38,896 nt of DNA from NCBI GenBank assembly GCA_003695915.1, contig RFGF01000016.1, positions 1-38,896 of the forward strand. Direction: 5' to 3'. The notes beneath the pieces were generated by a model. That model saw only the letters and a list, made by a program, of their open reading frames with translations, had not been told where the DNA came from and did no database searches. Origin of the DNA: Nitrospirota bacterium. Lineage in GTDB: Bacteria; Nitrospirota; Nitrospiria; Nitrospirales; UBA8639. Positions 11,265 to 30,445 of this stretch are shown piece after piece. Every line of letters begins with the position of its first letter. The first letter of the stretch is position 1. The position numbers and the translations under genes are program-made.

Positions 11265-12947
11265 TTAGGGGTTGGTCGGTTTGGGCGATAGGTCGGTGGC
11301 TCGTGCCGAAGGCGACGAGCGGCAAATTTCCTCGGCATGCCGGAGGGCATCGATCCGCCTGGCATAAATATGGCCCGGTCGGACCTTTCGCAAGACATCG
11401 AATCCTTTCAGCACCTCCGCCACCGTCGGATTCATTCCGACAAAGAAGAGATGCTGTTTGTGACTTTGAATCATCGTCAGCATGTCTTCGATCGCCAAAG
11501 CGGCTGTCCCGTCGATCGTCGGCACATCGGTCAGATCCAAAATGACGCTGGAAAATTTCTCGATACCCGGCGTTGTTTCCAGCCTCCGCACCATATTTTT
11601 AGCCGATCCGAAACTCATCGGACCGTCCACATGGATCATGACAATCCGTCCCACATTCCGCTCGAGGATTTCCCGTTCTTCCCGTGTCAACGGCATTTCG
11701 GGACGAGGTTTGGAAATCACTTGAAGGTTGGCCAATTCCAAATCTGCCATCCGTTTGACGAACAGCAAACTGGCCAACACCACTCCCACGCCGACGGCCG
11801 TAATCAGATCGACCAACACCGTGACCGCGAGCACAACAAACATAATGAACACATCGGTACGCGGCGCCTGGAGGATGTGCTTGAGGAACCGCCAGTCGAT
11901 AATATCCACCCCGACTTTGATCAAGATCCCGGCCAGAACGGCTAACGGAATTTTTTCAGCCAGCGGACCCAATCCCAGCAACGTGCCCAACAGGACGACA
12001 GCCATCAGCATGCCGGACAACGGTGTTCGGCCTCCTGTTCGAATATTGGCGACTGATCGCATCGTCGCTCCAGCCCCAGGCAAGCCTCCGAACAGCCCCG
12101 ACACCATGTTCCCGATCCCTTGACCGATCAGCTCCCGATTGGAATCATGTTGTGTTCGGGTCATATTGTCGCAGACAAGCGACGTCAACAGACTGTCGAT
12201 GCTACCCAACAGGGCCAGCACCACCGCCGATTCCAACATGAGCATCAACGCATCGAACTTGATCACCGGGACGATGGGGGTAGGGAAGCCTTCGGGCACC
12301 TCGCCGATCACAGGCACTCCCGGCAAGTAGAATTCTACGAGCACGGTGCCGATGATCAAGGCGAGCAAAGAAGGCGGCATCAGTTTTCCGATCTTGGAAG
12401 GGGTCAGATACACGATACCGAGCGTCAAAAGCCCCGCGAAGGCTGCTTCCGGGGAAGGATGCGAAAAAAATTCCGGAAGCGCCGCCAGATTCGCGAGCAC
12501 GCCTCCTTGGGCAGCATGACCCACTAGCGGTCCGAGTTGCAAAATAATAATGATGCATCCGATGCCGCTCATGAACCCCGAGATCACCGGATACGGCACG
12601 AGCATGATGTACTTCCCCATGCCCACCAAGCCGAACACGATTTGGAACAGTCCGCCGATGATCACGACGGTGAAGGCCACCGCCGGCTCGTCGTGGAATT
12701 GGGCGAGAATCCCGGCCATGACCACCGTCATGGGGCCTGTCGGTCCCGAACATTGCGCAGGCGTTCCCCCGAACAACGCGGCAAAGAAGCCGACAAAGAT
12801 CGCGCCGTACAGCCCGGCAATTGCTCCCGCCCCTGAGGCCTCTCCGAACGCCAACGCCAAGGGTAGCGCGACAATGGCGGCCACGATGCCGCCGTAAAAA
12901 TCACCGCGCAGATTGTTGAAATGCAATCCGTAGATCCAGTTCGTCAT
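11265..12947 (-). CDS. SulP family anion transporter with STAS domain (bicarbonate or sulfate)
   Basis: The protein is about 560 residues from the ATG at 12947 (MTNWIYGLHFNNLRGDFYGG). An upstream ATG at 13007 adds 20 residues without family features. The first 400 residues carry the many hydrophobic segments of SulP permeases, including LPLALAFGEASGAGA, CSGPTGPMTVV and GLPGAGATMRSVANIRTGG. A STAS domain follows from about residue 430 (IVMIHVDGPMSFGSAKN, then VILDLTDVPTIDGTAALAIE). SulP proteins carry sulfate or, as in BicA, Na+-dependent bicarbonate. Being beside CBS, PII-like and DabA genes favours bicarbonate here, as inference. Its 5' neighbour is the PAS-GAF gene on the same strand, about 117 nt away, so they may share a transcript. 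Confidence 0.88.
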   Translation of the reverse strand: MTNWIYGLHFNNLRGDFYGGIVAAIVALPLALAFGEASGAGAIAGLYGAIFVGFFAALFGGTPAQCSGPTGPMTVVMAGILAQFHDEPAVAFTVVIIGGLFQIVFGLVGMGKYIMLVPYPVISGFMSGIGCIIIILQLGPLVGHAAQGGVLANLAALPEFFSHPSPEAAFAGLLTLGIVYLTPSKIGKLMPPSLLALIIGTVLVEFYLPGVPVIGEVPEGFPTPIVPVIKFDALMLMLESAVVLALLGSIDSLLTSLVCDNMTRTQHDSNRELIGQGIGNMVSGLFGGLPGAGATMRSVANIRTGGRTPLSGMLMAVVLLGTLLGLGPLAEKIPLAVLAGILIKVGVDIIDWRFLKHILQAPRTDVFIMFVVLAVTVLVDLITAVGVGVVLASLLFVKRMADLELANLQVISKPRPEMPLTREEREILERNVGRIVMIHVDGPMSFGSAKNMVRRLETTPGIEKFSSVILDLTDVPTIDGTAALAIEDMLTMIQSHKQHLFFVGMNPTVAEVLKGFDVLRKVRPGHIYARRIDALRHAEEICRSSPSARATDLSPKPTNP

Positions 12948-13064
12948 CGCCCTATTTTCGAACGAGCGTTGCCTTTGCTCGGCATGAGTCGATAATGCCC
13001 AGGCCATCGCCTCGAAAACCGATGACTATGGCCACAAGGCCTCTTCCTCCCCTCACTAGATAGT

Positions 13065-14303
13065 CTAAATCGATTCACCGGTTTTCTGCGATTTGGTCAA
13101 CCCTGTGTAATGGAGAAACTGTCCGATTTGGATGCCGATCGTTCCAAACATCTGAAGGAGTTCTTCGTCGGGTTCTTCTGGGTCACGGCTGAAAAATTCC
13201 ATGACCGCGACGACCTCGCCCTTGACCTTGATAGGGAATCCAAAGCCGGCGTGCAGGCCTTCTTTTTCGGCGATCGGCGCGCGCGGGAAATTGGGGTCTT
13301 TCACCACATCGGGAATCCAGAGGGGTTCTCCGCTTTCCCACACGCGGCCGGGCAGTCCGATCCCTTGGGCAAAGGTCGTCTCTTTGGTTAACGCTTCGAA
13401 CGCCTCCAAGTGCGCGGAAGGCTCGTGCCAGACATCGAGGCACCGGAGCACCGCGCGCTCACGATCCACGATCCAGAGCGCGCCGATGGACCACATCAGG
13501 CTTTCACAAATAGCTTGCAAAATTCGAGGGGCCGCCTCGGTCAGCGATTGCGATTGCGCCAACACGAGCGCAACGGCATGATGAGCGGCCAAGCGCCGTT
13601 CGGCTTTTTTGCGATCCGTGATATCGAGGCCGAATCCCACGAACGGATAGCCTTCTAACGTGCTCGGACTGACGCAATTCAAAAACCACCACGGCTGCCC
13701 ATCATGAATCCCGTGGCTTTCGTAAAAGATGGGTTCGCTGGATTCTGCATGTTTCAACCGGGCCTGAATGTCAGGAGGAGGCTCGAGCGGATTGCGCCCC
13801 AACACGGTCATCTCCGTAAATCCGATCCGTAGCAAGCCCTTCCCCATACATTCCTGCATATAACCGTTCTCGTCGAGCTTGAAGACCACAGCCGGCATAT
13901 TGGTGAGAATGCCTGCCAGGATCCCGCTCTGAACCCGCATCGCCGCATCAGCCTGTTTGACCTGGAGAGCCAACAAGGCTGTGGCCCAAATCGCGAACAA
14001 GGCCAAGCACCGATTGATCAGGGCCATCCAAACGGCAGCGCCCTTCGGCGATTCGAAAAAGCCGATGACGGTCAGCACGCTGCAGGCAATCGATGCGATG
14101 AGCGTGTCGCGTGGTTCCGGAGATCGCAGAGCAATCAGGACCACGGCCACGTAGGGTACCGCCTCGGCAATTCCCAGCGGCACGAAAAAATCGAGCGCGA
14201 AGATGGCCGCCGCCACCAATGATGCCATTCCCAGCACCTGACCGCGAGTATGGGAACGTGGTGCCAATGCCTGTGAAGTGAACAAGCGATGCTCCATACT
14301 CAT
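13065..14303 (-). CDS. Membrane-anchored PAS-GAF sensory protein without output domain
   Basis: The protein is 412 residues; its ATG overlaps the stop of the CBS gene as ATGA, so the two are translationally coupled. Residues about 25-115 form several hydrophobic segments (MASLVAAAIFALDFFVPLG; AVPYVAVVLIAL; CLALFAIWATALLAL). A PAS domain follows (about 130-235, ILTNMPAVVFKLDENGYMQE through VGFGLDITDRKKAE, with the usual PAC ending), then a GAF domain (about 245-400, with GIGLPGRVWESGEPLWIPDV and FGFPIKVKGEVVAVMEFFS). There is no histidine kinase, GGDEF, EAL or HTH part after the GAF domain, so it must act through a partner. The ligand cannot be told from sequence. Confidence 0.85.
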   Translation of the reverse strand: MSMEHRLFTSQALAPRSHTRGQVLGMASLVAAAIFALDFFVPLGIAEAVPYVAVVLIALRSPEPRDTLIASIACSVLTVIGFFESPKGAAVWMALINRCLALFAIWATALLALQVKQADAAMRVQSGILAGILTNMPAVVFKLDENGYMQECMGKGLLRIGFTEMTVLGRNPLEPPPDIQARLKHAESSEPIFYESHGIHDGQPWWFLNCVSPSTLEGYPFVGFGLDITDRKKAERRLAAHHAVALVLAQSQSLTEAAPRILQAICESLMWSIGALWIVDRERAVLRCLDVWHEPSAHLEAFEALTKETTFAQGIGLPGRVWESGEPLWIPDVVKDPNFPRAPIAEKEGLHAGFGFPIKVKGEVVAVMEFFSRDPEEPDEELLQMFGTIGIQIGQFLHYTGLTKSQKTGESI

Positions 14304-14788
14304 TCACGGGGCGCTGCTGTTCGGACATTCATCGGCAGCGTCTCCATTCCATATTCGAAAAACAGTCCTCGATTGATATCTCCGATACTCACCATGCCCA
14401 CCAGTTTGCCGTGTTCGGCAACAGGAATGCGCCGAAAATTTTTGAGCCCCATATAGGAGGCGGCCTCGAGAATCGGCATCTCCGGAGGAACCGTCAGAGG
14501 ATGCCGGCTCATAATCTCTTCGACCGGTTTTTTGAGGACATCCGGATAGCTTTCTTCCATTTCCACAAAATCCCGGCTGTGCACATTGTCGTGAATATAA
14601 TCGCCGTAATTCGGGTAGAGCGGAATCATGACATCGCGCACGGCGACGAGCCCGACAAGGGTCCGATCGTCTTCGACCACAGGGACCGCGCCGCAGTGCC
14701 GGCAGATCATCTTGATGACGACGGAGCGCACGAGGTCGGAGGGTTTGGCTGTGACCACTCCGGTGGACATGACATCCTTGACCAGCAT
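14300..14788 (-). CDS. CBS-domain pair protein
   Basis: The protein is 162 residues, with AAGGAGG upstream of the ATG at 14788. Two CBS domains are visible: residues about 1-58 (MLVKDVMSTGVVTAKPSDLV, ending TLVGLVAVRDVMIPLYP) and about 88-150 (VEEIMSRHPLTVPPEMPILE, ending GKLVGMVSIGDINRGLF). They are separated by a 30-residue charged insert. CBS pairs bind adenine nucleotides and sense energy state. With no attached enzyme it probably regulates a neighbour, the SulP or PAS-GAF protein, whose gene overlaps it by 4 nt. A short palindrome lies just before the ribosome site. Confidence 0.88.
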   Translation of the reverse strand: MLVKDVMSTGVVTAKPSDLVRSVVIKMICRHCGAVPVVEDDRTLVGLVAVRDVMIPLYPNYGDYIHDNVHSRDFVEMEESYPDVLKKPVEEIMSRHPLTVPPEMPILEAASYMGLKNFRRIPVAEHGKLVGMVSIGDINRGLFFEYGMETLPMNVRTAAPRE

Positions 14789-14808
14789 AGGACACCTCCT
14801 TGGCTATA

Positions 14809-14824
14809 ACACGTTACGACGTGT
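14809..14824 (-). promoter_or_regulatory. Palindrome upstream of the CBS gene, possible operator
   Basis: ACACGTtacgACGTGT in plus-strand order forms a perfect 6-bp inverted repeat around a 4-base centre. It sits about 20 bases upstream of the CBS start codon, next to a -10-like TTATAG on the minus strand. It could be a repressor site or a small hairpin in the leader; no protein can be named. Confidence 0.35.
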
Positions 14825-14968
14825 CTGGACGGACATGCACCCGAGAACGCTGGATACTCTTCAGAGCCATCCAATTCATAGCATGATGTCTGGAGAGCCT
14901 GTTACGTATTACATGGCTCGTCCTGACACAAGGGTGTACCGGTGGTTCTTCCCCATCCGGCCAAACCC

Positions 14969-15280
14969 CTATGGTTTCTCTGATTTAAAATAATCACGTC
15001 GCACCACGGTCACCTCCGAGACGAAGACGACGCCGGAATGATGTTCTAATAAGGGCACGACCCCTGCCAAGACCGCCTCGACCTTTTCTTTGGGCACGAC
15101 TGTGATGATCATCACCATGCTGTGGATGTCGTTGAACATGAGATGTCCTTCGTGCAAGCCATGATGACCTTTGCCGGAGATATTGGGAATGATGGTGTAT
15201 CCCGAGACTCGCACCCGATCCAAGACACGTTCGACCTCTTTTTGAAACTGACCGCGGACGATTATTTCCAACTTTCGCAT
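14969..15280 (-). CDS. PII-like signalling protein of the carbon-uptake operon
   Basis: The protein is 103 residues. The frame is open upstream into the NuoM-like gene, but the ATG at 15280 has GTGAGG just before it and gives the classic PII start MRKLEIIVRGQFQKEVERVL. The segments SGYTIIPNISGKGHHGL and HSMVMIITVVPKEKVEAVLA match the PII ferredoxin-like fold, with a short loop instead of a canonical T-loop; the usual uridylylated tyrosine is not evident. PII-like proteins of this kind, such as SbtB with SbtA, accompany inorganic-carbon transporters and gate them in response to nucleotides or bicarbonate. It is the last gene of the DabA-Mrp operon, 50 nt after the NuoM-like gene, so it probably regulates that complex. 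Confidence 0.85.
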   Translation of the reverse strand: MRKLEIIVRGQFQKEVERVLDRVRVSGYTIIPNISGKGHHGLHEGHLMFNDIHSMVMIITVVPKEKVEAVLAGVVPLLEHHSGVVFVSEVTVVRRDYFKSEKP

Positions 15281-15330
15281 GGCCTCACCTATCCTAAACA
15301 CGTCGCTCGCTTCATCCCACGTCTCGAGGA

Positions 15331-16833
15331 TCACGGCCATAAAGCGGCCAACGTTGAGCGAACTTCCTGCATGTGTTCCACTAAATGCATCACACGAGAA
15401 TCCATAATATCGAAGAGCGGACTCGGATAGAGTCCGATCACGAACACCGCAATGGCCAAGGGTACCAGGGTCGCCATTTCTCTCCGATTGAGATCCGACA
15501 GGCTCATCACCATTTTCGACGTCGTGGGACCAAAGGCGACTCGCTGCAACATCCACAACATGTATCCCGCCGCCAAAACGATACCGCCCATCGCGAGCAG
15601 CACCATCAAGTAGCTTTCATACGATGTGCCGACCAGAACCAGAAATTCCCCGATAAAATTGCAGGTTCCAGGGAGACCGAACGAGGCGACGGAAAAAATA
15701 CTCAGCATCATGACCAATCGTGGCATCGTTTTCTGCAAGCCGCCGTAATCCCGAATCTGCCGGCTATGCGTCCGATCGTACAGTTGGCCAACAGTTAAGA
15801 ACAGCGCACTTGTCGTAATCCCATGGTTGAACATTTGCAAAATCGCCCCTTGAATGCCCGGGCTATTGAATACAAAGATTCCCAACGTCACAAAGCCCAT
15901 ATGGGAAATCGATGAATAGGCGATCAATTTTTTCAAGTCCGTTTGCGCCAAGGCATTATAGCCCCCATAAATGATCGCAATAATGGACAGCCACAAAATC
16001 AGCGGCGCAAAATTCGCCGACGCTTCGGGAAACATCGGCAAGCAAAAACGCAAAAACCCGTAGCCGCCCATTTTCAAGAGCACGCCCGCAAGGATAACGC
16101 TCCCAGCCGTGGGCGCTTCGGAATGGGCATCCGGAAGCCACGAATGAAACGGAAACATCGGCAGCTTGATCGCGAAGGCCAAAAAGAACGAAAGAAAGAT
16201 CCAAAATTGCGCCTCGGCAGCATAGGACTGCTGAGAGAGCAGCATCCAATCGAAAGTCCGTCCACCTTCGAGGTACAGCCCCAAGATCCCCACAAGCAGC
16301 AAGAGACTGCCTGCCAAGCTGTACAGGACAAATTTGATCCCTGCAGCAATCCGATTCGGGCCACCCCACACGAGAATCATAAAGTACATCGGGATCATGG
16401 TGACTTCCCACAGCATGAAGAACAAAAAGAGATCGAGCGCGGTGAACACCACGATCATCGCCGCCTCAACGAGTAAAATCAGCGAGAGAAACACCTTGAT
16501 CCGGTGGTGGATGGACCCCCAGGTACTGAGCACACATAGCGGTGTCAGGAGAGTGGTCAAGAGCACCAGTAGCAGACTGATGCCATCGACGCCAACGGCA
16601 TATTGGATATTGAATGTCGGCATCCAGGCCATGCGCTCGACAAACTGGAAATCCGGATTGCGAGGATCGAATCCTGCCCAAAGACCGAAGCCGAGACCTA
16701 GCTCCAGCAGCGTGGCGCCCAAGGCGATACGCTTCGCCCATTCATCGTCGCGCATGACCGCAAGCAGCCCCATCCCTAGCACGGGCACGAGGACCAAACA
16801 CGTAATGAGATGATTCGAGAACCAATCGGTCAT
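15331..16833 (-). CDS. NuoM-like proton-translocating antiporter subunit
   Basis: The protein is 500 residues, start MTDWFSNHLITCLVLVPVLG with AAAGGA upstream. About 14 membrane segments are visible. Key residues of the NuoM/MrpD/ND4 family are present: a glutamate in FFMLWEVTMIPMYFM, a lysine in FAIKLPMFPFHSWLPDAHSE, a second lysine in LAGVLLKMGGYGF, and the late segment QMFNHGITTSALFL. Length and motifs fit NuoM closely, yet no NuoA-K or NuoBCDEFGHI gene lies nearby. It therefore serves as an extra ion-translocating subunit of the DabA-Mrp complex rather than respiratory complex I. It lies 128 nt after the NuoL-like gene and 50 nt before the PII-like gene, all co-directional. Confidence 0.92.
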   Translation of the reverse strand: MTDWFSNHLITCLVLVPVLGMGLLAVMRDDEWAKRIALGATLLELGLGFGLWAGFDPRNPDFQFVERMAWMPTFNIQYAVGVDGISLLLVLLTTLLTPLCVLSTWGSIHHRIKVFLSLILLVEAAMIVVFTALDLFLFFMLWEVTMIPMYFMILVWGGPNRIAAGIKFVLYSLAGSLLLLVGILGLYLEGGRTFDWMLLSQQSYAAEAQFWIFLSFFLAFAIKLPMFPFHSWLPDAHSEAPTAGSVILAGVLLKMGGYGFLRFCLPMFPEASANFAPLILWLSIIAIIYGGYNALAQTDLKKLIAYSSISHMGFVTLGIFVFNSPGIQGAILQMFNHGITTSALFLTVGQLYDRTHSRQIRDYGGLQKTMPRLVMMLSIFSVASFGLPGTCNFIGEFLVLVGTSYESYLMVLLAMGGIVLAAGYMLWMLQRVAFGPTTSKMVMSLSDLNRREMATLVPLAIAVFVIGLYPSPLFDIMDSRVMHLVEHMQEVRSTLAALWP

Positions 16834-16875
16834 AATCGATTCCTTTGGTACTTCGTTGTCTTTTTACATATATCT

Positions 16876-16893
16876 TGGTGGCTCCGGCCACCA
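16876..16893 (-). other. Small intergenic hairpin between the NuoL-like and NuoM-like genes
   Basis: TGGTGGC tccg GCCACCA in plus-strand order gives a perfect 7-bp stem with a 4-base loop inside the gap of 128 bases. No T-run follows on the minus strand, so it is not a good terminator. It could stabilise or separate the transcript segments for the two subunits. Confidence 0.35.
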
Positions 16894-16961
16894 ATCTATG
16901 GACCGGTTCGGGGGTGTGAGCCCCAAACAGTCCTCTCGATCCATGAAAAGCGCGTGCGCGA

Positions 16962-19124
16962 TTAAAAAATCAGCCAAAACACAATCGCCAAGACCAAGAC
17001 CATCCAGAAAATCAATACCAGTAGATGGTGTTGGAGCATGCGTGGTTCGAGCTCCTCTAACGTTTCCCCGGCTTCTTGCGCGCCCATGCCGACTCGTTCG
17101 AGACCACGATCCATCCCACGCGTATCCACACGCTGCCACAGCCATTTTCCGAGGCCTTGCGATTTCGTGCCCACTTCCGTGACCGTACGATCAATGCCAC
17201 CAAGATCGACCACTCGCCAAAGCCAACGCGCAAGCAGAATCGAGGCTTGTCCGAACCGTTTGAGGCTGCGATCGATTCCTTGGATATCGACGACGTGCCA
17301 GAGCCATCGGGCTGTCCCTAGGGAAATGGCTCCTATGCCCGTCACCGCCTGATCGATGCCGCCGACATCGACGACTTTCCATAGCCATCTGGCAAATGCC
17401 ATCGTCGGCTTGACCACTCCCACGTGATACAGGTCATCGACATAGCCACGATTCAAAAAAAAGACATAGGCGACCTGTTTGGCATGGGAGGCCATTGGAA
17501 ACCGCACCACGCCGACCTGCACGGCATACGCCAGTCCCCATCCAGCGAGCGCGACAAGAAAAGGGACTACCATCCCTAGAGATCCATCCCACAAGCCGCG
17601 TTCGAACAACCTCGTCCTTCCTTGCTGAGCAAAGACCGGCGATAGGAACGCTTGAAACCAACTCCATATCCCTATGAGCACACCCAGCGTGATCAAGCCA
17701 CCCACTCCCAACACCATAAGAACTGCTGGCGCCAACCATGACTGCCCCTCACCATCTTGATGTTCGGAAAACACCAAGGACCATGTGCCGATCAATCTGG
17801 CCATCCCGCGAAAGATGTACCAGGAAGTCAAGAACACCGTGGCAAGGCCAATGCCCCAGTATGCCCATTGCGCAGCGGGAGACGAGGCTGTTTCCCAGAG
17901 CTGCGCGTACGGACTCGAAAAAATGACGAGCGGCGGGATCATGGCTAACAGCAGCGCCCCAATGGGAATCGTGCCCAAGCGTGCAGGCGCATACGCCCAT
18001 CGTTCCGCTCCGACACGAGGCCGTGCAGCCAGTTGCGAGACCGTATTGCCCGTCGACAGAAATAAATACGCTTTGAACACCCCATGCATACAGAGATGGT
18101 AAATCGCAAGGACATAGGCCCCGAGCCCACACGCAAACATCATATACCCAATCTGGCTCATGGTCGAATAAGCCAACACCCGTTTGATGTCGCTGTGGAC
18201 CAGCGCCAAACATCCGCCAAGCAAGGCCGTCAGCGCTCCCACGACCGTAACCATTATCATCGCCGCCGAACTTTCCAGAAACAGCGGGCTCAGGCGAGCT
18301 ACAAGATAGACACCAGCATTAACCACCATGGTGGCGGTCAAGGTGGTGCCTGGGGTAGGCGACTCCATGGCCAGTGGCAACCAGACATGAAAGGGAAATT
18401 GTGAAGATTTGCCGACGGCCCCCATGAAGAGCAACACGGCAATGAGCGTAGAGGCTTGCATCGACCATTCCAACCCCGCCCAACCCAAGATATCGATCGT
18501 CTGGCCAGCTGCCGTGGACACCTGCGAGAGGAGAGACGGAATGTCCAGAGTGCCGAATGTCGCAAAGGCCAAAATGACACCCAACCCCATCCCAACGCTG
18601 GCCACGGCATTGACCAGAAATGTCGTGGTTGCGGCGCGACAAGCGGGAAGCCGTTCTGAATAATGGGAAATCACCAGATACGAACAGAGTCCCAAAATTT
18701 CCCAAAAGGCATAGAGCAGAAGCAGATTGGCGCTCATGACCACCATGATCATCGAAAAAGTGTAGAGCGCGATGACGGCGAAAAACCGTCGATACCTGAC
18801 ATCGCCGTGCATATAGCGTGGAGCGTAGAGGTGCACGACGCTACTGATGGTGGTCACCAGCACCAACAAGGCCGCGGTCAGTTGATCGACATAGAGTGAA
18901 AGGGCGACATCGAGCTCTCCCACATGGATGAATCGATACCCGGAAAGGGAAAAGGGGCCACGCACGGCGACTTCCCAGGCCGCCAGCAGGGAAAGCGCCC
19001 ACGCTCCGATCACACAAGGAACGCCAATACGCTGGGCACGAGCATTCATGCCCGCCCCCCCAAAGGCGATCATCAGAAACGCCGATAAGGGCAAGAGCGG
19101 TATCAACGCATACAGGTCGGTCAT
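16962..19124 (-). CDS. NuoL/ND5-like antiporter subunit (MrpA N-terminal or DabB role) with repeated C-terminal helix
   Basis: The protein is 720 residues, start MTDLYALIPLLPLSAFLMIA. About 15 membrane helices carry the NuoL/ND5 core: a glutamate in LYAFWEILGLCSYL, a lysine in GAVGKSSQFPFHVWLPLAM, and a lysine in MHGVFKAYLFLSTG. The usual histidine motif of helix 8 (SALIHAATMV in NuoL) is replaced by GTTLTATMV, which sets it apart from respiratory NuoL. Residues 578-685 are four copies of a 27-residue amphipathic unit, followed by a final membrane helix (LLVLIFWMVLVLAIVFWLIF). In complex I the NuoL tail forms a lateral helix along the membrane arm; the repeats may extend such a helix. In the operon it lies 70 nt after mrpD and before the NuoM-like gene. 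It is probably the ion channel partner of DabA, equivalent to DabB or to MrpA without its C-terminal part. Confidence 0.9.
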   Translation of the reverse strand: MTDLYALIPLLPLSAFLMIAFGGAGMNARAQRIGVPCVIGAWALSLLAAWEVAVRGPFSLSGYRFIHVGELDVALSLYVDQLTAALLVLVTTISSVVHLYAPRYMHGDVRYRRFFAVIALYTFSMIMVVMSANLLLLYAFWEILGLCSYLVISHYSERLPACRAATTTFLVNAVASVGMGLGVILAFATFGTLDIPSLLSQVSTAAGQTIDILGWAGLEWSMQASTLIAVLLFMGAVGKSSQFPFHVWLPLAMESPTPGTTLTATMVVNAGVYLVARLSPLFLESSAAMIMVTVVGALTALLGGCLALVHSDIKRVLAYSTMSQIGYMMFACGLGAYVLAIYHLCMHGVFKAYLFLSTGNTVSQLAARPRVGAERWAYAPARLGTIPIGALLLAMIPPLVIFSSPYAQLWETASSPAAQWAYWGIGLATVFLTSWYIFRGMARLIGTWSLVFSEHQDGEGQSWLAPAVLMVLGVGGLITLGVLIGIWSWFQAFLSPVFAQQGRTRLFERGLWDGSLGMVVPFLVALAGWGLAYAVQVGVVRFPMASHAKQVAYVFFLNRGYVDDLYHVGVVKPTMAFARWLWKVVDVGGIDQAVTGIGAISLGTARWLWHVVDIQGIDRSLKRFGQASILLARWLWRVVDLGGIDRTVTEVGTKSQGLGKWLWQRVDTRGMDRGLERVGMGAQEAGETLEELEPRMLQHHLLVLIFWMVLVLAIVFWLIF
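17070..17393 (-). repeat. Four 27-residue (81-bp) tandem repeats in the NuoL-like protein
   Basis: Residues 578-604, 605-631, 632-658 and 659-685 each start with (A/G)(R/K)WLW, then a basic or aromatic position, VVD or RVD, two variable residues, G(I/M)D, and a variable half rich in Gly, Thr and Ser. All units are exactly 27 residues with no gaps. The first three begin ARWLW and the last GKWLW. The DNA units have diverged at many positions, so the array is old rather than a recent slippage product. Confidence 0.9.
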
Positions 19125-19194
19125 GACGTCATGCTTCCTTCATTCCCGAGGTCCAGCAACGATCTCGATCCTCCCTGTTCGTCTTCCGGCTCGC

Positions 19195-20652
19195 TCAACC
19201 AGGAAACGCATGGTCGAGAATTAACCGAATCATGGGGTCGCTCATCAGGCCAAGGACCAAACTCGCTGCGGCGAGCATTCCCATGGTTGCCCGCATCGAT
19301 AAAGGACTTTCTGCCAGAACCGCCGGACCTGACGAGACCGAATCGACAAAAATGCGTTCAAAGATTGTGACGAAATACCCCAAGGTCAATAACGTGGCGC
19401 CGACGACACCGCCCACCACGATATAATTCCCGGCCTCTAAAGCTCCCAGAATGATGTACCATTTCCCAAAAAATCCTCCGCTCGGGGGAATACCGATCAT
19501 GGAAATGGCGATGACGATCAGGACACCAATGACCCAGGGCATCTGACCGCGGAGGCGACCCAAATCCGCAAGGGTTCGGATGCCCAAGCTATAAAAAGCC
19601 GTGCCCGCAATATAAAAGAGCGCCGCCTGCATCACCGCATCCGTCAGCAAATAAAAAATTCCGCCTGCAAACCCCGTCGGATTGCCGAGACAGACTCCCA
19701 TCACAATGATGCCGACATGAGAAATGCCGGCATAGGCAAACATACGCTTGAGTTCTTGTTGTGAGAGCGCCAAAAATGCTCCGACAAGGGCCGCAACGGC
19801 CCCCAACCAGCTCGAAAGCGTCAAAATCGGAAGCGTCTCGCCGACTTCTTCTCCACCCACCACCCAATACATCACACGGACAACGGCATATAACGCGACC
19901 TTCGTGACGAGTGGGGCCAAGAGGGGACTCACCGAATCAGGAGCATCGACATACGCATCTGGCAGCCAGCCGTGTAACGGCACGAGCGCCATCTTGATGC
20001 CTAATCCGATCAACATAAAGATGAAGCCTGCCATCACCGCCTTGGAAGCCAGCAGATCCGGAAGGCGATCAGCCAGATCCGTCATATTCAACGTCCCCGT
20101 TACCGCATAAAAATAGCCTACGCCTAATAGATACAATGACGCCCCCAGCGTGCCGAGGATCAAATACCGGAAGGCTGAAACGAGGGCGCGTCCTCCCGCC
20201 GATCCAACCAGGGCATAACTTGACAGCGCCGACACCTCCAAAAAGACAAAGATGTTGAACAAATCTCCAGCCATCACCATGCCAGATAATCCGGACACGA
20301 GCAGGAGCGTGAGAAGATGAAAATGGATGCTGCCCTTGCCTTCCGTGACCAGAGGCCCTGCATACCAGACCCCCATCAAGGCCAAACTTCCCAGCAGGGG
20401 GAGCAGCAACCCGCTCAATCCATCAACGATCCACTCGATGCCCAAGGGCGGCATCCACCCAGATAGGGCATACCGAATCGGTCCTTGCGCAATCACATGG
20501 CTATAGAGCATGACCGACAATCCCGTCATGGCAGCCAGCGCCAGCATGGTCAGTCCTCGGCACCATTTCGGCCTGACCAGACTGATCAGTGGCATACAGA
20601 TGGCCATCCCAAAGGGGAGGAGAAACACGAAGACGGGCAAGTGGTGTCTCAT
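19195..20652 (-). CDS. mrpD: MrpD-type (NuoN-like) Na+/H+ antiporter subunit
   Basis: The protein is 485 residues, start MRHHLPVFVFLLPFGMAICM, overlapping mrpC by 4 nt (ATGA). About 14 membrane helices are visible, with the family markers: a glutamate in FLEVSALSSYAL, a lysine in GLGIKMALVPLHGWLPDAY, then PDSVSPLLAPLVTKVALYAV, and LSQQELKRMFAYAGISHVG. These fit MrpD better than NuoM or NuoN, and the mrpB-mrpC-mrpD gene order agrees. MrpD forms one of the ion paths in Mrp antiporters. Here it is the first of three antiporter-like subunits in the operon, followed after 70 nt by the NuoL-like gene. Confidence 0.92.
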   Translation of the reverse strand: MRHHLPVFVFLLPFGMAICMPLISLVRPKWCRGLTMLALAAMTGLSVMLYSHVIAQGPIRYALSGWMPPLGIEWIVDGLSGLLLPLLGSLALMGVWYAGPLVTEGKGSIHFHLLTLLLVSGLSGMVMAGDLFNIFVFLEVSALSSYALVGSAGGRALVSAFRYLILGTLGASLYLLGVGYFYAVTGTLNMTDLADRLPDLLASKAVMAGFIFMLIGLGIKMALVPLHGWLPDAYVDAPDSVSPLLAPLVTKVALYAVVRVMYWVVGGEEVGETLPILTLSSWLGAVAALVGAFLALSQQELKRMFAYAGISHVGIIVMGVCLGNPTGFAGGIFYLLTDAVMQAALFYIAGTAFYSLGIRTLADLGRLRGQMPWVIGVLIVIAISMIGIPPSGGFFGKWYIILGALEAGNYIVVGGVVGATLLTLGYFVTIFERIFVDSVSSGPAVLAESPLSMRATMGMLAAASLVLGLMSDPMIRLILDHAFPG

Positions 20653-21038
20653 TCGCCAAGCTGCTTCAAAATGACTTCCTCATCCAGACTACCGTACTGT
20701 CGGTAGATGGCCACTACCAGAGCCAATGACACTCCAAGAGTTGCCACCCCGACCACAATGGCGGTGAGCATCAAAACATGAGGAAGTGGATTCGCATAGA
20801 GCGCCGGATCTACAGATTCCCCGTTGAGCAAAATGGGGACCGTCGCTCCGGCTTTTGCGCTGACCGTAATAAAAAAGAAAATGACGCTCGTTTGGACGAG
20901 ATACATCCCGATGAGCTTTTTTATTAGATTGTGATGGGCGATCATGATATAGAGCCCCCATAAAAACAGGATAATGAAGGCGATAAAGTTCGGCCGCTGC
21001 AACCAGATCGTCAGAATGTCAAATAGCGAAGCATTCAT
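20649..21038 (-). CDS. mrpC: MrpC (NuoK-like) antiporter subunit
   Basis: The protein is 129 residues with three membrane helices. It shows the MrpC/NuoK pattern: GLYIMIAHHNLIKKLIGMYL in the first third and PLPHVLMLTAIVVGVATLGV, the counterpart of the PLPQALVLTAIVIG motif of MrpC, in the last third. It overlaps mrpD by 4 nt downstream and mrpB by 4 nt upstream. MrpC interlocks with MrpA and MrpD in the membrane arm. The charged tail after the last helix (SLDEEVILKQLGE) is slightly longer than in many members. Confidence 0.92.
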   Translation of the reverse strand: MNASLFDILTIWLQRPNFIAFIILFLWGLYIMIAHHNLIKKLIGMYLVQTSVIFFFITVSAKAGATVPILLNGESVDPALYANPLPHVLMLTAIVVGVATLGVSLALVVAIYRQYGSLDEEVILKQLGE

Positions 21039-21484
21039 GACGAAGCCCCATACCCTCTAGAAGAATCCGCGAGATGCAACACAATGGACAGGGCCGTCAC
21101 CGCCACATCGATCGCCACGCCGAGCTGGGCCATGAATATCCCGACAAACCGGCGGGATGCGGCATCGAGTCCTGGAATCGGCAGTTCGGTGTAATTCAAA
21201 AATTCGCCTCCTGCCAGCAAACACAGCCCACCCACACCGGCAAAGACCAAGAGCCCGACTCCGTCACCTTGAATGACACGAAAAATGATCCGTTGCCAGG
21301 CACTGTCCAATCCGAAGACCAACATGCTGAACACCAGACTGGTGCCGACGATAACCCCGCCGACAAATCCACCGCCCGGTCCAAATTGTCCAAAACAGAG
21401 GACGTAAATTCCAAAGAGCTGGATCAACGGGATGAGCACACGGCCGATGATCTGCACAATGAGGCTATCGTGTGTGCGAATCAT
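21035..21484 (-). CDS. mrpB: MrpB antiporter subunit
   Basis: The protein is 149 residues, starting MIRTHDSLIVQIIGRVLIPL. The family motif LFGIYVLCFGQFGPGGGFVGG corresponds to the MnhB/MrpB consensus (FLHGHNAPGGGFIGG in many members), followed by four membrane helices ending SVDxA-like in GVAIDVAVTALSIVLHL. It overlaps the DUF4040 gene by 20 nt and mrpC by 4 nt, so the set is translated as a unit. It is a small structural subunit of the Mrp complex. Confidence 0.92.
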   Translation of the reverse strand: MIRTHDSLIVQIIGRVLIPLIQLFGIYVLCFGQFGPGGGFVGGVIVGTSLVFSMLVFGLDSAWQRIIFRVIQGDGVGLLVFAGVGGLCLLAGGEFLNYTELPIPGLDAASRRFVGIFMAQLGVAIDVAVTALSIVLHLADSSRGYGASS

Positions 21485-22010
21485 GTCTGGAAGTCCTCAA
21501 AAGGCACGCGGTCGCAATGCCCGCCGTAAAAATCACCGCTGTTTCGATCAGCGTATCGAGGGAACGAAAGTCCATGAGCACCGATGTCACCACATTCGGG
21601 GTCTTGGTTGCCGGAAGGCTGTGCATTAAATAGTCCGGAGCGAGATGGGTATTCGACGGCGAGAGGGGATCGCCAAATTTGGGCAAGTCCTCGGCAATAT
21701 AGAGCAACAAGATCCCCAAGAGCGGCAGGCCGACGAAGGCCGGCCATTGCCCTCGCGGCAATTGTCCTTTTTGTTCGAGCGGGACGGTCAAAAACAAGGC
21801 CAGCAAAAACAACACCGTCGCCAGACCGGCCCCGACGACGGCTTCCGTAAAGGCGACATCGACCGCGCCCAACCAGGCCCACAGCAAAGCCAGAAAGAAA
21901 CTGTACGATCCCAGCACCAGCACTGCGCCGATCAAATCCTTAATGAGAATGGCCCCGGCTGCTGTCAAAATGAGCAGCAACACTAATGACAGATTGGCAT
22001 AGACATTCAT
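21465..22010 (-). CDS. DUF4040 / MbhD-MbhE-like subunit (equivalent of the MrpA C-terminal part)
   Basis: The protein is 181 residues. The ATG at 22010 overlaps the mrpG stop as ATGA and starts MNVYANLSLVLLLILTAAGA; the longer open frame upstream is spurious. Residues 1-75 match DUF4040 (MbhD), with GAVLVLGSYSFFLALLWAWL and DVAFTEAVVGAGLATVLF. Residues about 90-175 resemble MbhE or the end of MrpA, with a soluble loop and a last helix (ETAVIFTAGIATACLL). In standard Mrp operons this is fused behind the NuoL-like part in MrpA. Here it is a separate gene between mrpG and mrpB, while the NuoL-like part is encoded farther down the operon, an arrangement closer to the Mbh/Mbs modules. Confidence 0.85.
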   Translation of the reverse strand: MNVYANLSLVLLLILTAAGAILIKDLIGAVLVLGSYSFFLALLWAWLGAVDVAFTEAVVGAGLATVLFLLALFLTVPLEQKGQLPRGQWPAFVGLPLLGILLLYIAEDLPKFGDPLSPSNTHLAPDYLMHSLPATKTPNVVTSVLMDFRSLDTLIETAVIFTAGIATACLLRTSRHDSHTR

Positions 22011-22309
22011 GATGGCTCCTTCATCCAAGGTCGAAGCCCGGACCTGTGCGCGGCGCGAATCGTGGCATGTGCGATCACCGGGTTGATGACATACAGCAAC
22101 AGCAAGACGATGAGGATCCGAAGAGTATGGGCAGACCATCCTTCATACAGCGCCAACCCGGTCAACAGGCAAAATGCGCCCAACGTGTCTGTCAGTCCGA
22201 CGGCATGGGCCCGAGCGAATACATCGGGCAAACGGATCATTCCGATCGCCGCCACGGACATGAAAAAGAGTCCACTCACCATCAAAACACTGACGACCAT
22301 CTCCACCAT
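22007..22309 (-). CDS. mrpG: MrpG antiporter subunit
   Basis: The protein is 100 residues with three membrane helices. MrpG/MnhG markers are visible: GLFFMSVAAIGMIRLPDVFA followed by RAHAVGLTDTLG, and LLLLYVINPVIAHATIRAAH near the end. The length is typical. It starts 3 nt after the mrpF stop and overlaps the DUF4040 gene by 4 nt. It belongs to the small-subunit end of the Mrp complex and has no known catalytic residues. Confidence 0.92.
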   Translation of the reverse strand: MVEMVVSVLMVSGLFFMSVAAIGMIRLPDVFARAHAVGLTDTLGAFCLLTGLALYEGWSAHTLRILIVLLLLYVINPVIAHATIRAAHRSGLRPWMKEPS

Positions 22310-22312
22310 CGG

Positions 22313-22579
22313 TTAGGCTCCTCGTTTTTGTTCGAGATATTTGGCAATGGCCAAAGACCCGACTAAGTTCAGCAGGGCATAGCCTGTCGAGATATCCACA
22401 AACATTTCCACCCGTTCATAAATCGTCCCAATCAGCACCAGCAGAATAATGGCCTTACTCGAAATACCGTTTAAGCCGAGCACGCGATCGAACACCGTTG
22501 GTCCTTGAATGACGCGATAGAGATACACCACGATCAACAGGGCCAACGCGATCAACATGCCTATGAAAAACGCGTTCAT
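22313..22579 (-). CDS. mrpF: MrpF antiporter subunit
   Basis: The protein is 88 residues with three membrane helices. The MrpF signature is clear: YRVIQGPTVFDRVLGLNGIS, with the conserved Gly-Pro-x-x-x-Asp-Arg-x-x-x-x-Asn/Asp, then IYERVEMFVDISTGYALLNL and a final short helix. It overlaps mrpE by 4 nt, so it is translationally coupled, and lies 3 nt before mrpG. In Mrp complexes MrpF has been proposed to lie on the Na+ path together with MrpG. Confidence 0.92.
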   Translation of the reverse strand: MNAFFIGMLIALALLIVVYLYRVIQGPTVFDRVLGLNGISSKAIILLVLIGTIYERVEMFVDISTGYALLNLVGSLAIAKYLEQKRGA

Positions 22580-23079
22580 GGTCGAGGACCGTTTGCTGTC
22601 ACAATTGGTGGCGAACTAAACAATGGTGCAATCTTTTGCTCGAGACGACCGCTCATCAGATCGTCAGCGGATTCTTCATCTATCGCATGAACCAGGAGTT
22701 CGTGTTCATCGGCATGGATCGTGACCGTCCCGGGCGTCAGGGTAACGGAATTGGCCATAAACACAATTGCCCAGGCATTGCGACAGGTTGGGGTGTACCG
22801 AACGACCTGTGGATTGATAGGCAACCGCGGATCGAGAACAAGACGGGCCATATGGATACTGCTGGCCACCATGCGCCCAAAAAGCCACGGTATATACACC
22901 AACGCCCGAACTAGCGTTCGCCAGGACAGGGGAGCAGCCACCGCCGGCATGGGATTGATCCAAACCACCCCAGCGGCCACCACTGCACCCACCACCATAT
23001 TCGCGAACGTGTAGGAACCTGACAAAGCGAGCCAGATCACCCACAGCGTTCCTGTTTTTCCGAAAAATGACGCGGCCAT
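22576..23079 (-). CDS. mrpE: MrpE antiporter subunit
   Basis: The protein is 167 residues, start MAASFFGKTGTLWVIWLALS, 9 nt after the dabA stop. Two N-terminal hydrophobic segments are followed by the MrpE core: an amphipathic stretch with FGRMVASSIHMARLVLDPRL, then NAWAIVFMANSVTLTPGTVT and IHADEHELLVHAI, the counterpart of the NSITLTPGTxT motif in MnhE. The C-terminal tail from about residue 130 is longer than usual and has no recognised motif. MrpE is a peripheral subunit needed for assembly. Its placement next to dabA makes it the join between the CO2-hydrating and ion-translocating halves of the operon. Confidence 0.9.
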   Translation of the reverse strand: MAASFFGKTGTLWVIWLALSGSYTFANMVVGAVVAAGVVWINPMPAVAAPLSWRTLVRALVYIPWLFGRMVASSIHMARLVLDPRLPINPQVVRYTPTCRNAWAIVFMANSVTLTPGTVTIHADEHELLVHAIDEESADDLMSGRLEQKIAPLFSSPPIVTANGPRP

Positions 23080-26958: not shown

Positions 26959-27013
26959 ATAAAAAAGCCAACCTGATCTGCCGAGCTACGCTCTCAACAG
27001 ACCTCGGTTGGCT
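26959..27013 (-). terminator. Intrinsic terminator in the dabA leader (attenuator)
   Basis: On the minus strand AGCCAACC pairs with GGTTGGCT (27013-26966). Inside, GGTCTG pairs with CAGATC (one G-U) and GAGC with GCTC around a GTA loop. The hairpin is followed at once by TTTTTATT. This is a strong Rho-independent terminator in the direction of dabA, ending about 70 bases before its start codon. No minus-strand gene ends just upstream (the next gene upstream, mpsC, is on the plus strand), so its natural role is control of read-through into dabA. Confidence 0.85.
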
Positions 27014-27020
27014 CTGTACT

Positions 27021-27120
27021 GTGACCGACCGGCCCGCGTTTCGCTCAACAGTCAGCCACCCTACCGCCGTGATCAGGTCGATACGTGTCGAGAAACTCGT
27101 CTCTGAACGTTTCCTCGACC
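27021..27120 (-). ncRNA. Structured 5' leader RNA of the dabA operon, possible riboswitch
   Basis: Two hairpins precede the terminator in the minus-strand transcript. One (27120-27076) is closed by GGUCGA/UCGACC and has an alternative inner pairing of UCGAG-AAAC with GUUU-CUCGA. The second (27059-27021) has an 11-bp stem, GUGGCUGACUG with CGGUCGGUCAC, including three G-U pairs. The 5' arm of this second stem can instead pair with CAGAGCCAACC (27016-27006), the 5' arm of the terminator plus three bases, giving about 10 pairs with two small bulges. That is the usual logic of a transcriptional riboswitch or attenuator. It matches no riboswitch class that I recognise; the ligand is unknown. Confidence 0.6.
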
Positions 27121-27130
27121 CTGTCCGGTA

Positions 27131-27160
27131 GTTATACTATGTTTTCGGAGCGTTATTCAA
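27131..27160 (-). promoter_or_regulatory. Sigma-70-like promoter of the dabA operon
   Basis: On the minus strand TTGAAT (27160-27155) and TATAAC (27136-27131) are separated by 18 bases. Transcription would start near 27124, just before the first leader hairpin, giving a leader of about 238 bases. The position fits the structured RNA and terminator well; no experiment supports it here. Confidence 0.6.
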
Positions 27161-27320: not shown

Positions 27321-27749
27321 ATGTCAAAGAAAACCAAGCTTGAGGCGATTACCACGCAAACGACCCAGGCTGAAATGGAAAACGCACTCCGGCAAGCCAT
27401 GATCAAGTTCGAGTACGACTTTATGGGGCGCGGGCCTACCGAAGTTCGAGCCTTCATCGTCCGGGACATGATCATCGTTCGACTCAAGGGCGTGCTCACC
27501 CCCGCAGAACGGCAGCTTGCCAAAACAGAAGAAGGAATCGGGATGGTGAAACAGATGCGACAGAACCTGCTCATGCAGGGCCGCGGTCAATTGATCAAGC
27601 AGGTCGAGAACATTACCGGAGCCACGCCCACCGCCTTGTTTACCGACATCGATGTCCGAGCTGGCGAGCGGATGATCGTCCTCACCCTCGACAGAGATGT
27701 CAGCAAGTCGCTTTCCCGTCGCCGCATTTCGCTGGCTTCCAATGATTGA
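27321..27749 (+). CDS. mpsC: MpsC-like DUF2294 protein
   Basis: The protein is 142 residues. AAGGAG lies 8 nt before the ATG at 27321 (MSKKTKLEAITTQTTQAEME); the longer open frame from 27168 has no conserved content. The PF10057 (DUF2294) pattern is visible: GRGPTEVRAFIVRDMIIVRL, LTPAERQLAKTEEGIGMVKQ and a C-terminal stretch FTDIDVRAGERMIVLTLD. In Staphylococcus the MpsABC bicarbonate and cation system pairs a DUF2294 protein (MpsC) with a DUF2309 protein (MpsB, that is DabA) and a NuoL-like protein (MpsA). Here the gene is divergent from dabA, with a promoter region of about 430 bases between the starts. It has no membrane segment and no signal peptide. A regulatory or assembly role is inferred. 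Confidence 0.85.
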   Translation: MSKKTKLEAITTQTTQAEMENALRQAMIKFEYDFMGRGPTEVRAFIVRDMIIVRLKGVLTPAERQLAKTEEGIGMVKQMRQNLLMQGRGQLIKQVENITGATPTALFTDIDVRAGERMIVLTLDRDVSKSLSRRRISLASND

Positions 27750-27792
27750 CGATCGTGGAAGGGCGTTACTTGCCCAGTGACCTCGGTCGTCA
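27747..27792. terminator. Inverted repeat between convergent mpsC and carbonic-anhydrase-like genes
   Basis: TGACGA (27747-27752) and TCGTCA (27787-27792) form the outer arms, and GGGC/GCCC (27761-27764, 27772-27775) an inner stem. The arms include both stop codons of the convergent genes. No T-run follows, so it may act as a barrier only weakly or through RNA stability. Confidence 0.35.
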
Positions 27793-28926
27793 GGACAACT
27801 GTTTTTCGGCCTCCGTCATCGCGGCGATCGATTGTTCCAAGTGCAGCTCGTCGGGGTTGGTCTCGGCCTGTTCTTGCAGCCGAGCCACAATCTGGGGCTG
27901 GTCCAGCACGAACCCCGAACCTTTGCGATCTTGCACGAACGCTGCCCACGGCACGAACTGGGTGACGGGAAACGCCTGGTATGCCGATGGAGAGAGATCG
28001 ATGTGAAGGCCGGACACGAACAACAGGCGCTTGCCTCGATAGGCGTCCGATGTAATCAGGCTACGGTAGGTTCGATCGAACTCCACTTGCACATTGGCTT
28101 GGGCGGCCGTCAGCAACGGCGAAGGCGACGCCACGATCCATGGCATCGCCGGCAAGAGATTGGCTTCCAACCTGTCTTCGGGCACTGCCTGGCCCGCGAG
28201 CGATCGCTGAAAATGAAACCACTGAGGCTGGAGATCCGACCCGATCGCCTGATGACCTGTCTCCGGCCACGCGGTATCGCCGAGCGTGGCTCGCAATTCT
28301 TGTGAGGCCACATACGATTTCGCCGTGCTCGATGAATAGCGGTAGCGGACTCGGCCTTTCCCATCTCCAGCGATGAGGCGATCGAGATGGAGCACCAATC
28401 CTTCGCGCGAATTTTCGAGCAGCGCGTTGTCGATGGTCACCAACAGTTCTCCTTCGTGCCGATGCAATCGGATGTTTTCCTGTGCAAACGCATAATGCTG
28501 CTGGTACCAGGCCAACACGTGCTCGATCTTTCCGCATGCTGATGTGGCTTCCATGTGCTCTGTATGCACCCGGCAATACACGCCGTACCGTCCCGTGTGC
28601 GGATCGAAGCCCACGTGCGACGCATGTACGATGACGAGATCCTGCCCGTGATGGGCATGGGGACCATGCCGGTCGATCGCCACGATGCCTCCGACCCGCC
28701 CATGATTGAAGGGAAACGCACCAAAATGCTTGGTTAGGAGAATGATGGGATAGCCCTGATTTTCATCGGAGCAAAAGGCTCGCGAGGGCAAGATTTTTCC
28801 TGGCTCGAATCCCAAGGAACGACAGTAATTGTACAGGCGCGCGGCAAAGCCGCTGTAGGGGAAGGACATTCCCTGAAGCTGGAATCCTTGAAGCTCCTTT
28901 CCAATGTCGGTACAGGCGAAATACAT
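27790..28926 (-). CDS. LCIB-type (theta) carbonic-anhydrase-like protein
   Basis: The protein is about 378 residues from the ATG at 28926 (MYFACTDIGKELQGFQLQGM; GAGG five bases upstream); a GTG at 28941 is an alternative. Residues 45-140 match the LCIB family: FCSDENQG gives a Cys-x-Asp pair (C52, D54), then KHFGAFPFNHGRVGGIVAID, VIVHASHVGFDPHTGRYG with H104, and ATSACGKIEHV with C131. In LCIB-type enzymes the zinc ligands are Cys, His and Cys, with Asp two residues after the first Cys, which fits. The last 200 residues form a second domain I do not recognise. The gene lies between mpsC and nhaD in the carbon-uptake island. A role in CO2/bicarbonate conversion is inferred, not shown. Confidence 0.65.
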   Translation of the reverse strand: MYFACTDIGKELQGFQLQGMSFPYSGFAARLYNYCRSLGFEPGKILPSRAFCSDENQGYPIILLTKHFGAFPFNHGRVGGIVAIDRHGPHAHHGQDLVIVHASHVGFDPHTGRYGVYCRVHTEHMEATSACGKIEHVLAWYQQHYAFAQENIRLHRHEGELLVTIDNALLENSREGLVLHLDRLIAGDGKGRVRYRYSSSTAKSYVASQELRATLGDTAWPETGHQAIGSDLQPQWFHFQRSLAGQAVPEDRLEANLLPAMPWIVASPSPLLTAAQANVQVEFDRTYRSLITSDAYRGKRLLFVSGLHIDLSPSAYQAFPVTQFVPWAAFVQDRKGSGFVLDQPQIVARLQEQAETNPDELHLEQSIAAMTEAEKQLS

Positions 28927-28996
28927 GATCCCCTCACACACGCTGATTCATGATGTCGACTCTGCAATCCCCGCGCGTTCCATTAGGCAGACGACT

Positions 28997-30445
28997 TCAA
29001 AACGTCCGGGCGTTGATCATCATATGCACGAAGATGCTGGCGGCATAGCCCAGCGCAATGGCCGGCGTCCAGCGCAGATGACTGAAAAAGGTGTACTTGC
29101 CTTTCGCTTGGCCCATTAAGGCCACGCCGGCTGCCGACCCGATCGACAAGAGGCTTCCCCCTACCCCAGCAGTCAACGTAACCAAGAGCCATTGCCCTGT
29201 CGACATATCGGGATTCATGGTCAAGACGGCAAACATAATGGGAATATTGTCGACAATGGCCGAGAGAATGCCGACCATCGTATTGGCGAACGTCGGGCCC
29301 CATTGCGCATACAGCACCTCCGATACCCGGGCGAGATAACCGAGAAAGCCCAATCCACCCACGCAGAGGACCACACCGTAAAAAAACAACAAGGTATCCC
29401 ATTCCGCCCTGGCGATTTTGCGAAACACATCGAACGCCAACACGTCGCCGACTTCTTCGCTGTTGATCGCCGAGCGAGCCGCGGTGCGATGCCCTACATG
29501 CCTCAGGTAGTAGCCGAAAAACTGAAGATAGGCGAGCCCGGTCATCATGCCGACCATTGGTGGCAGATGAAGAAAGTTATGGAAGCTGACAGCCGTGCAA
29601 ATGGTGAGGAAAAACAATCCCATGATGCGCTTGGCGCCGACTTTCATCGTCACGACCTCCAAAGAGGGCTTCGGAGCGATCCGCGGCACGGCCGGGTGCA
29701 TGAACGCGGCCGGGACAATAAAGTTGACTACCGAAGGAATAAAGAGCAAAAAGAAGGTGAAAAAATCGACGATCCCTTTTTGCCAGACCATCAAGGTAGT
29801 GATATCTCCGAACGGGCTGAAAGCGCCACCCGCATTGGCGGCTACGACGATGTTGATGCAGGCCAACGCCACAAATTTCGCGTTGTCCGCTCCGACCGCC
29901 AAGACTACGGCACACATGAGCAACGCGGTCGTGAGATTATCGGCTACGGGAGAAATACAGAACGCCAACGTGCCCGTGATCCAAAACAGTTGTCGATAGG
30001 TAAACCCTTTGCGCACCAGCCAGGCCCGAAGCGCCTCGAACACCCGCCGTTCGTCCATGGCGTTAATGTAGGTCATCGCCACCAACAAAAAGAGCATCAA
30101 CTCTGCATACTCCAGAATGTTGTGGCGCAGCGCTTCTTCGACGACTTCGGCACGATCGTGGGGATAAGCCAAGGCGATCAGTACCCAGATCAACCCGGCA
30201 GCGAGAATGACCGGCTTGGATTTCCGCAAATGCGTGAACTCCTCGGTCATGACCAACGCATACGCCAGGATGAATAGGCCCAGGGCGAAATAGCCCACGG
30301 GGGAAGTCGTCAGATCCAAGGAGGATGGTTCGCCGGAAGAGGCTCCTGCGGCCGGAGGGATGAACAGGAAGGCCACAAGCATCACCAGGAGCGACCGGAC
30401 ACCGAAACGGTGCTGTCCCGGCCGCTCACATCGGTCGCTGGTCAT
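28997..30445 (-). CDS. nhaD: NhaD-family Na+/H+ antiporter
   Basis: The protein is about 482 residues from an ATG at 30445 (MTSDRCERPGQHRFGVRSLL); the frame is open to a GTG at 30550, and the true start is uncertain because no clear ribosome site is seen. An N-terminal signal-like helix ends at PPAAGASSG, and about 12 further helices follow. Signatures of NhaD in the ion-transporter superfamily are visible: FCISPVADNLTTALLMCAVV in one half and ILSAIVDNIPIMFAVLTMNP in the other (two Asp-Asn sites), plus NAGGAFSPFGDITTLMVWQK. NhaD exports Na+ or Li+ in exchange for protons. It lies between the LCIB-like and SulP genes, where it could restore the Na+ gradient used by bicarbonate uptake. Confidence 0.9.
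   Translation of the reverse strand: MTSDRCERPGQHRFGVRSLLVMLVAFLFIPPAAGASSGEPSSLDLTTSPVGYFALGLFILAYALVMTEEFTHLRKSKPVILAAGLIWVLIALAYPHDRAEVVEEALRHNILEYAELMLFLLVAMTYINAMDERRVFEALRAWLVRKGFTYRQLFWITGTLAFCISPVADNLTTALLMCAVVLAVGADNAKFVALACINIVVAANAGGAFSPFGDITTLMVWQKGIVDFFTFFLLFIPSVVNFIVPAAFMHPAVPRIAPKPSLEVVTMKVGAKRIMGLFFLTICTAVSFHNFLHLPPMVGMMTGLAYLQFFGYYLRHVGHRTAARSAINSEEVGDVLAFDVFRKIARAEWDTLLFFYGVVLCVGGLGFLGYLARVSEVLYAQWGPTFANTMVGILSAIVDNIPIMFAVLTMNPDMSTGQWLLVTLTAGVGGSLLSIGSAAGVALMGQAKGKYTFFSHLRWTPAIALGYAASIFVHMMINARTF

Follow-up and report, generated by a model that had tools for sequence, protein, structure and literature searches.

The leader that precedes dabA in the window (the whole stretch of 38,896 nucleotides analyzed herein) is a member of a previously uncatalogued RNA family distributed across one bacterial order. 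The family itself, its structure, the strand shared between two of its helices, and its association with particular genes are all supported by sequence comparison. This RNA probably decides between an early stop and continued transcription. With good confidence, we interpret it as a cis-acting transcription attenuator that belongs to the order-wide family and controls inorganic-carbon uptake operons, and in which a bound factor holding the basal helix P1 would switch the operon on.

The first-pass annotation of this DNA described a promoter (TTGAAT-18-TATAAC), two hairpins, and a strong terminator in front of dabA, and all of them are present on the minus strand. The -35 element TTGAAT (27155..27160) and the -10 element TATAAC (27131..27136) are separated by a spacer of 18 nt (27131-27160). 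Both were assigned from the sequence, and the closest relative, locus L003, carries the corresponding TTGA(A/G)T-18-TATAAC with GTATAACTAC unchanged. Hairpin 1, formed by UCGAGGAAAC..GAGUUUCUCGA at 27088..27118 on the minus strand, lies outside the family core and is kept only in the closest relative. Hairpin 2 is formed on the same strand around GUAGGGUGGC..GGUCACAGUAC. The intrinsic terminator, GAGCCAACC..GGUUGGCUUUUUU, occupies 26961..27014 on the minus strand with the 3' end GGUUGGC-UUUUUU; its folding energy is -31.9 kcal/mol (z -6.1), and its arms covary in relatives. The fold of the whole leader was better than all 200 of 200 dinucleotide shuffles (z -4.75). The distance from the terminator to the dabA start codon (ATG at 26886) is about 74-75 nt. 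No minus-strand gene lies just upstream, as had been stated, because the neighboring mpsC (27321-27749) reads on the plus strand. The terminator is thus not explained by an upstream gene and belongs to the leader itself.

The first gene after the leader is dabA (PF10070; 23089..26886, minus strand). It is followed on the same strand, at 11265..23079, by mnhE, mnhG, an MbhD/E-like gene, mnhB, mnhC, mnhD, NuoL-like, NuoM-like, P-II-like, CBS, and SulP genes. The orientation and spacing suggest that dabA through the SulP gene form one operon. The P-II-like protein (PF00543; 14969-15556, minus strand) is encoded near the end of the dabA-mrp cluster, followed by the CBS-domain protein, another gene, and SulP, and is a possible carbon or nucleotide sensor. 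On the other side of the leader, mpsC (PF10057; 27321..27749, plus strand) is the divergent neighbor and the candidate trans-acting factor. Beside mpsC and convergent with it is an LCIB_C_CA-like gene (beta-carbonic anhydrase-like, PF18599, 26.4 bits; 27790-28941, minus strand), which supports the assignment as a carbon-uptake locus. Genes for NhaD, SulP, a CBS protein, and NhaB follow in a row at 28997-34795 on the minus strand. As far as passages of the report on Ca. Nitrospira alkalitolerans describe it, this row resembles the Na+/bicarbonate locus of that organism (PMC7784846). Those passages present a locus in haloalkalitolerant Nitrospira that encodes Mrp, NhaB, and a protein resembling BicA, read it as Na+-driven bicarbonate uptake, and contain no mention of an RNA element there.

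Relatives of the leader were collected by covariance models. A contig scan with the window DabA alone gave no match, and a scan with a two-protein DabA alignment gave the first relative again as its sole match. This first relative (genome G005, locus L003) has a DabA 61% identical to that of the window, and its leader contains TTGAGT-18-TATAAC, hairpin 1 with one compensatory pair, hairpin 2 as GUAGGGUGGC..GCCACAGUAC, and the terminator as GAGCCAACC..GGUUGGCUUUUUUAUUGUC. Model R1, built from the window and L003 sequences, matched further genomes of the same order, with many copies directly 5' of dabA. Model R2, built from 22 copies, gave matches in 113 of the 396 genomes sampled from the phylum. 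Every matched genome belongs to the window's order, with 23 genera represented, and R2 gave no match in the other orders sampled among the 396. One named relative and the gene content suggest that this order is the Nitrospirales. When 29 genomes were searched more finely, G254, G281, and G294, which were negative in the first sample, gave matches and brought the total to 116 genomes; copies were also found in G012, G029, and G033, with G012 already matched by R1. A single genome holds up to several copies. Nothing was found in the viral contigs and plasmids scanned.

The surroundings were obtained for nearly all matches, and 138 sense matches were read, including 122 with a readable core. Twelve sense matches were removed by hand, since their core was absent, broken, or truncated. 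Among these, L061, L170-L172, and L175 showed the terminator only; L168 and L176-L178 were chance matches or terminators; and L173, L174, and L155 completed the group. Four others, the truncated L106 and the diverged L158, L165, and L169, escaped the core pattern and stand outside the 122. Antisense matches were attributed to the palindromic terminator, and a pattern match with one mismatch in G004 (L034) sits in an unrelated, apparently coding region. In L170-L172, L175, and L061, which precede dabA, the core is absent and a terminator resembling that of the family (AAGCCAACCG..CGGUUGGCUUUUUUAUUG) follows GAUCGCUUGC..GCGAUAGAAU, perhaps as a diverged version of the element. In L168 (401-504, G006:C81; 40.7 bits), the terminator contains a GCCAGCCGA arm, and the hairpin 5' of it is a different one. 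This match lies 385 nt before a gene resembling CDP-alcohol phosphatidyltransferase and is not a clear member.

The family core reads GGC-n(0-2)-GUAGGG(U/C)-P2-(A/G)CAGU(A/G)C-AA-GCC-terminator. In the window, the core domain P1-PM-P2, whose covariance-model matches are found in 116 genomes, spans 27010..27068 on the minus strand as GGC-G-GUA-GG-GU..(P2 hairpin)..AC-AG-UAC-AGA-GCC, with the variable and covarying P2 stem-loop at 27021..27059. In the 22-row alignment, 94.1% of the cells pair. Changes on both sides of P2 and terminator pairs numbered 38 in this alignment, compared with 13.0 +- 3.0 after shuffling and at most 11 after sliding; of the two controls, sliding is the more conservative, since shuffles lose relatedness. 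Similarly, among 92 distinct copies, P2 showed 98 both-side changes versus 32.2 +- 6.5 after shuffling, with a maximum of 50 in 500 shuffles. Within the GG/AG internal loop, G.G is kept in 87 of the 92 distinct copies and G.A in all 92. Conservation and covariation of the stems in relatives had been proposed as a check on the leader. Of these, P2 and the terminator are conserved and covary. Core variants also occur: the dabA leaders L054 (1501-1729) and L057 (1501-1631) have GUGUGGU in place of GUAGGGU, and L144, L151, L158, L165, and L169 have further variants, such as GUACGGU with CAAUAC. These variants are useful for mapping the recognition site.

The first gene after the 138 sense matches was NuoL-like in 84 cases, dabA in 18, mnhE in 17, and a SulP-family transporter gene in 14; the other five were a contig end (L046), L168, and L176-L178. 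For the 122 core copies, the first gene was dabB/NuoL-like in 82, mnhE (mrpE) in 16, dabA in 12, and SulP in 11, with a contig end in one. All 121 copies that head a readable gene are located before a gene of inorganic-carbon uptake or Mrp. In NuoL-first operons of seven genomes (G044, G047, G052, G054, G056, G057, and G058), dabA follows in the same orientation at a distance of about 3-6 kb, and the NuoL-like first gene thus most likely encodes the DabB partner. The SulP proteins are members of PF00916, with the NCBIfam BicA model among their sub-threshold matches; their substrate may be bicarbonate. To judge from these comparisons, the family is associated with carbon-uptake operons, and the link of the leader to inorganic-carbon and Na+ transport genes, suggested earlier for the window, holds across an order.

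The architecture of a switch is visible at the base of the core domain. P1 is a basal GGC:GCC helix just outside hairpin 2. Its 5' strand, the antiterminator GGC (27066..27068, minus strand), lies immediately before GUA, and the GCC at 27010..27012 is common to the 3' strand of P1 and the 5' arm of the terminator. Of the 122 copies, 114 are able to form P1, compared with 19.6 +- 4.1 after shuffling of the upstream bases. When the domain was folded without the terminator 3' arm, P1 was present in the minimum-energy fold of 102 of 122 copies, including the window's own transcript. In L163, 5' of a SulP gene, GGC/GCC/GGC is replaced by GGU/ACC/GGU, so that all three strands are changed. This indicates that the middle strand must be able to pair with both partners. 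With 3-5 pairs, P1 is short, and it varies so little that its own covariation consists of the single L163 event plus G-U changes. The leader combines the two marks of an attenuator, an intrinsic terminator between promoter and gene and a conserved alternative helix that shares a terminator strand. The terminator is more stable than the P1 state by about 29 kcal/mol (median), which argues for termination by default; read-through would need a strong stabilizer of P1 or kinetic control.

The candidate for such a stabilizer is MpsC. For 84 of the 123 copies listed, an mpsC gene lies upstream at a distance of no more than 1 kb, in every case head-to-head with the element. Across the order, among genomes with readable status and with counts set by hand, 110 genomes have both the RNA and mpsC, 5 the RNA only, 7 mpsC only, and 16 neither (Fisher p ~1e-11, phylogeny ignored). 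Among dabA-holding genomes, the corresponding numbers are 30, 3, 1, and 6 (p = 1.4e-4, phylogeny ignored). The RNA is damaged in two genomes without detected mpsC, with a broken core in G004 (L155) and no P1 strand in G015 (L137). Against MpsC, the core is intact in G002, where mpsC was not detected; other orders carry mpsC without the RNA; and the charge of the protein is near neutral in most relatives. No solved relative of MpsC was found by sequence. Its AlphaFold model is good (pLDDT 84.7); the model gave no significant Foldseek match, its best VIA-align Z of 7.2 was to unrelated folds, and no clear RNA-binding fold was seen, which leaves the fold uninformative as to function. In S. aureus, deletion of mpsC had no growth phenotype, mpsC was dispensable for MpsAB function, and mpsA was down-regulated at 5% CO2 (PMC6689103). 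These findings leave room for a regulatory role of MpsC.

The pairing partner of the terminator is where our interpretation departs from the first-pass annotation. A conserved pair of terminator and mutually exclusive antiterminator does exist, as had been claimed, and the leader has the logic of an attenuator throughout the order; the switching helix, however, is P1 and not the 5' arm of hairpin 2. The latter arm, GGGUGGCU, was proposed to pair with the terminator 5' arm, AGCCAACC. Both the window and L003 allow this pairing, at about -12.6 to -13 kcal/mol, but 473 (window) and 567 (L003) of 2000 shuffled segments did equally well. Up to 15 of 22 relatives disrupt its pairs, which show no covariation, and P2 together with P1 explains the conservation better. 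We consider the GGGUGGCU:AGCCAACC antiterminator very improbable. A leader-peptide attenuator of the trp/his type, which would likewise have a pair of mutually exclusive hairpins ahead of an operon, is hardly credible. In the 122 leaders examined, no conserved translated leader peptide was found; a short frame with a Shine-Dalgarno-like site is present in only 19 of them, and no codon pattern is shared. With its own promoter and strong terminator, the leader could also be read as an independent, trans-acting small RNA of about 110-170 nt whose 3' end is at the terminator. Its position argues otherwise, since the element is always sense and just 5' of a carbon-uptake gene (dabA, dabB/NuoL, mrpE, or sulP), with several copies in some genomes, and the overlap of P1 and terminator would be without purpose in such an RNA. 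We regard the small RNA as unlikely.

The strongest competitor retains the same switch and lets a small ligand bind the internal-loop core directly, with no protein. Such a metabolite or ion riboswitch has a substantial chance of being correct, if a minority one. The strict conservation of the core in the order-wide sample, the ion and bicarbonate transporter targets, and a terminator platform typical of riboswitches are consistent with it, and Na+, a proton or pH effect, a nucleotide, or a carbon-shortage metabolite are candidate ligands. On the other hand, only about four unpaired bases of the core are invariant and its apical loop is free, which is small for an aptamer, and the linkage to mpsC suggests a protein partner. 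With the closed P1 as the ON state, bicarbonate itself would give the wrong sign, as an ample carbon supply would turn transcription on. Both a ligand riboswitch and a protein-bound antiterminator are compatible with the small core and the head-to-head mpsC. The head-to-head position of mpsC, together with its co-occurrence with the RNA, makes the protein-bound antiterminator at least as likely. We slightly prefer a BglG/RAT-style hairpin that acts as antiterminator when bound by a protein, for which MpsC is the prime candidate.

In the attenuator that we favor, RNA polymerase would start at the conserved promoter and make the hairpin domain P2-PM-P1. With P1 unheld, the terminator, which is far more stable, would capture the GCC strand, and transcription would stop about 75 nt before dabA, giving a default OFF state. 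A trans-acting factor would bind the internal-loop core (GUA-GG-GU / AC-AG-UAC) and keep P1 closed. The closed P1 would sequester the terminator 5' arm, and the dabA-mrp operon would be transcribed. The factor would act in the ON direction and would presumably signal carbon shortage, and MpsC may be this factor. In its widest form, the proposal would be a new order-wide class of RNA switch for inorganic-carbon acquisition (DAB, Mrp, SulP) in nitrifiers, with MpsC as a carbon- or ion-responsive RNA-binding antiterminator. We offer this wider form tentatively and consider it rather unlikely in full; if true, the antiterminator role would be the first function for the orphan MpsC.

We know of no established answer to how inorganic-carbon supply is sensed in autotrophs such as Nitrospira. 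The element is a defined RNA of about 110 nt that can be used for direct tests of the signal and the effector, and it points to a possible role for MpsC, which is conserved beside carbon-uptake genes. No earlier report of an RNA element controlling DAB, Mrp, or SulP carbon-uptake genes was found in Rfam 15 and the literature searched. The lack of a known class, noted from the sequence at the outset, was borne out: the window, L003, and 18 other loci gave no Rfam 15 match at gathering, and permissive E-values gave only chance-level matches to unrelated families. Li+ riboswitches (PMC9646797) are likewise leader RNAs, in their case of cation antiporter genes; in target genes and Rfam matching, the two points compared, the element is set apart from them by other target genes and the lack of a match. 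The Na+-I riboswitch (DUF1646 motif; PMC9337991) is similarly found in the leaders of genes that transport Na+ and related cations. Both of its stems are extended, and conserved clusters lie at the base of P1 and within the loop of P2 (PMC9337991). In contrast, the element consists of a single stem whose internal loop is conserved and whose apical loop is free, and it has no Rfam match to this class. In logic, it is closest to the RAT hairpins, and this likeness is one of logic only, with no membership claimed. RAT hairpins of the BglG/SacY/LicT family are small, have conserved internal loops, and overlap the terminator 5' arm with their 3' part. They are off by default, are stabilized by a bound protein, and regulate sugar genes. 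The element differs from them in sequence, no BglG-type protein is seen at the locus, its binder is a candidate only, and its targets are carbon-uptake genes.
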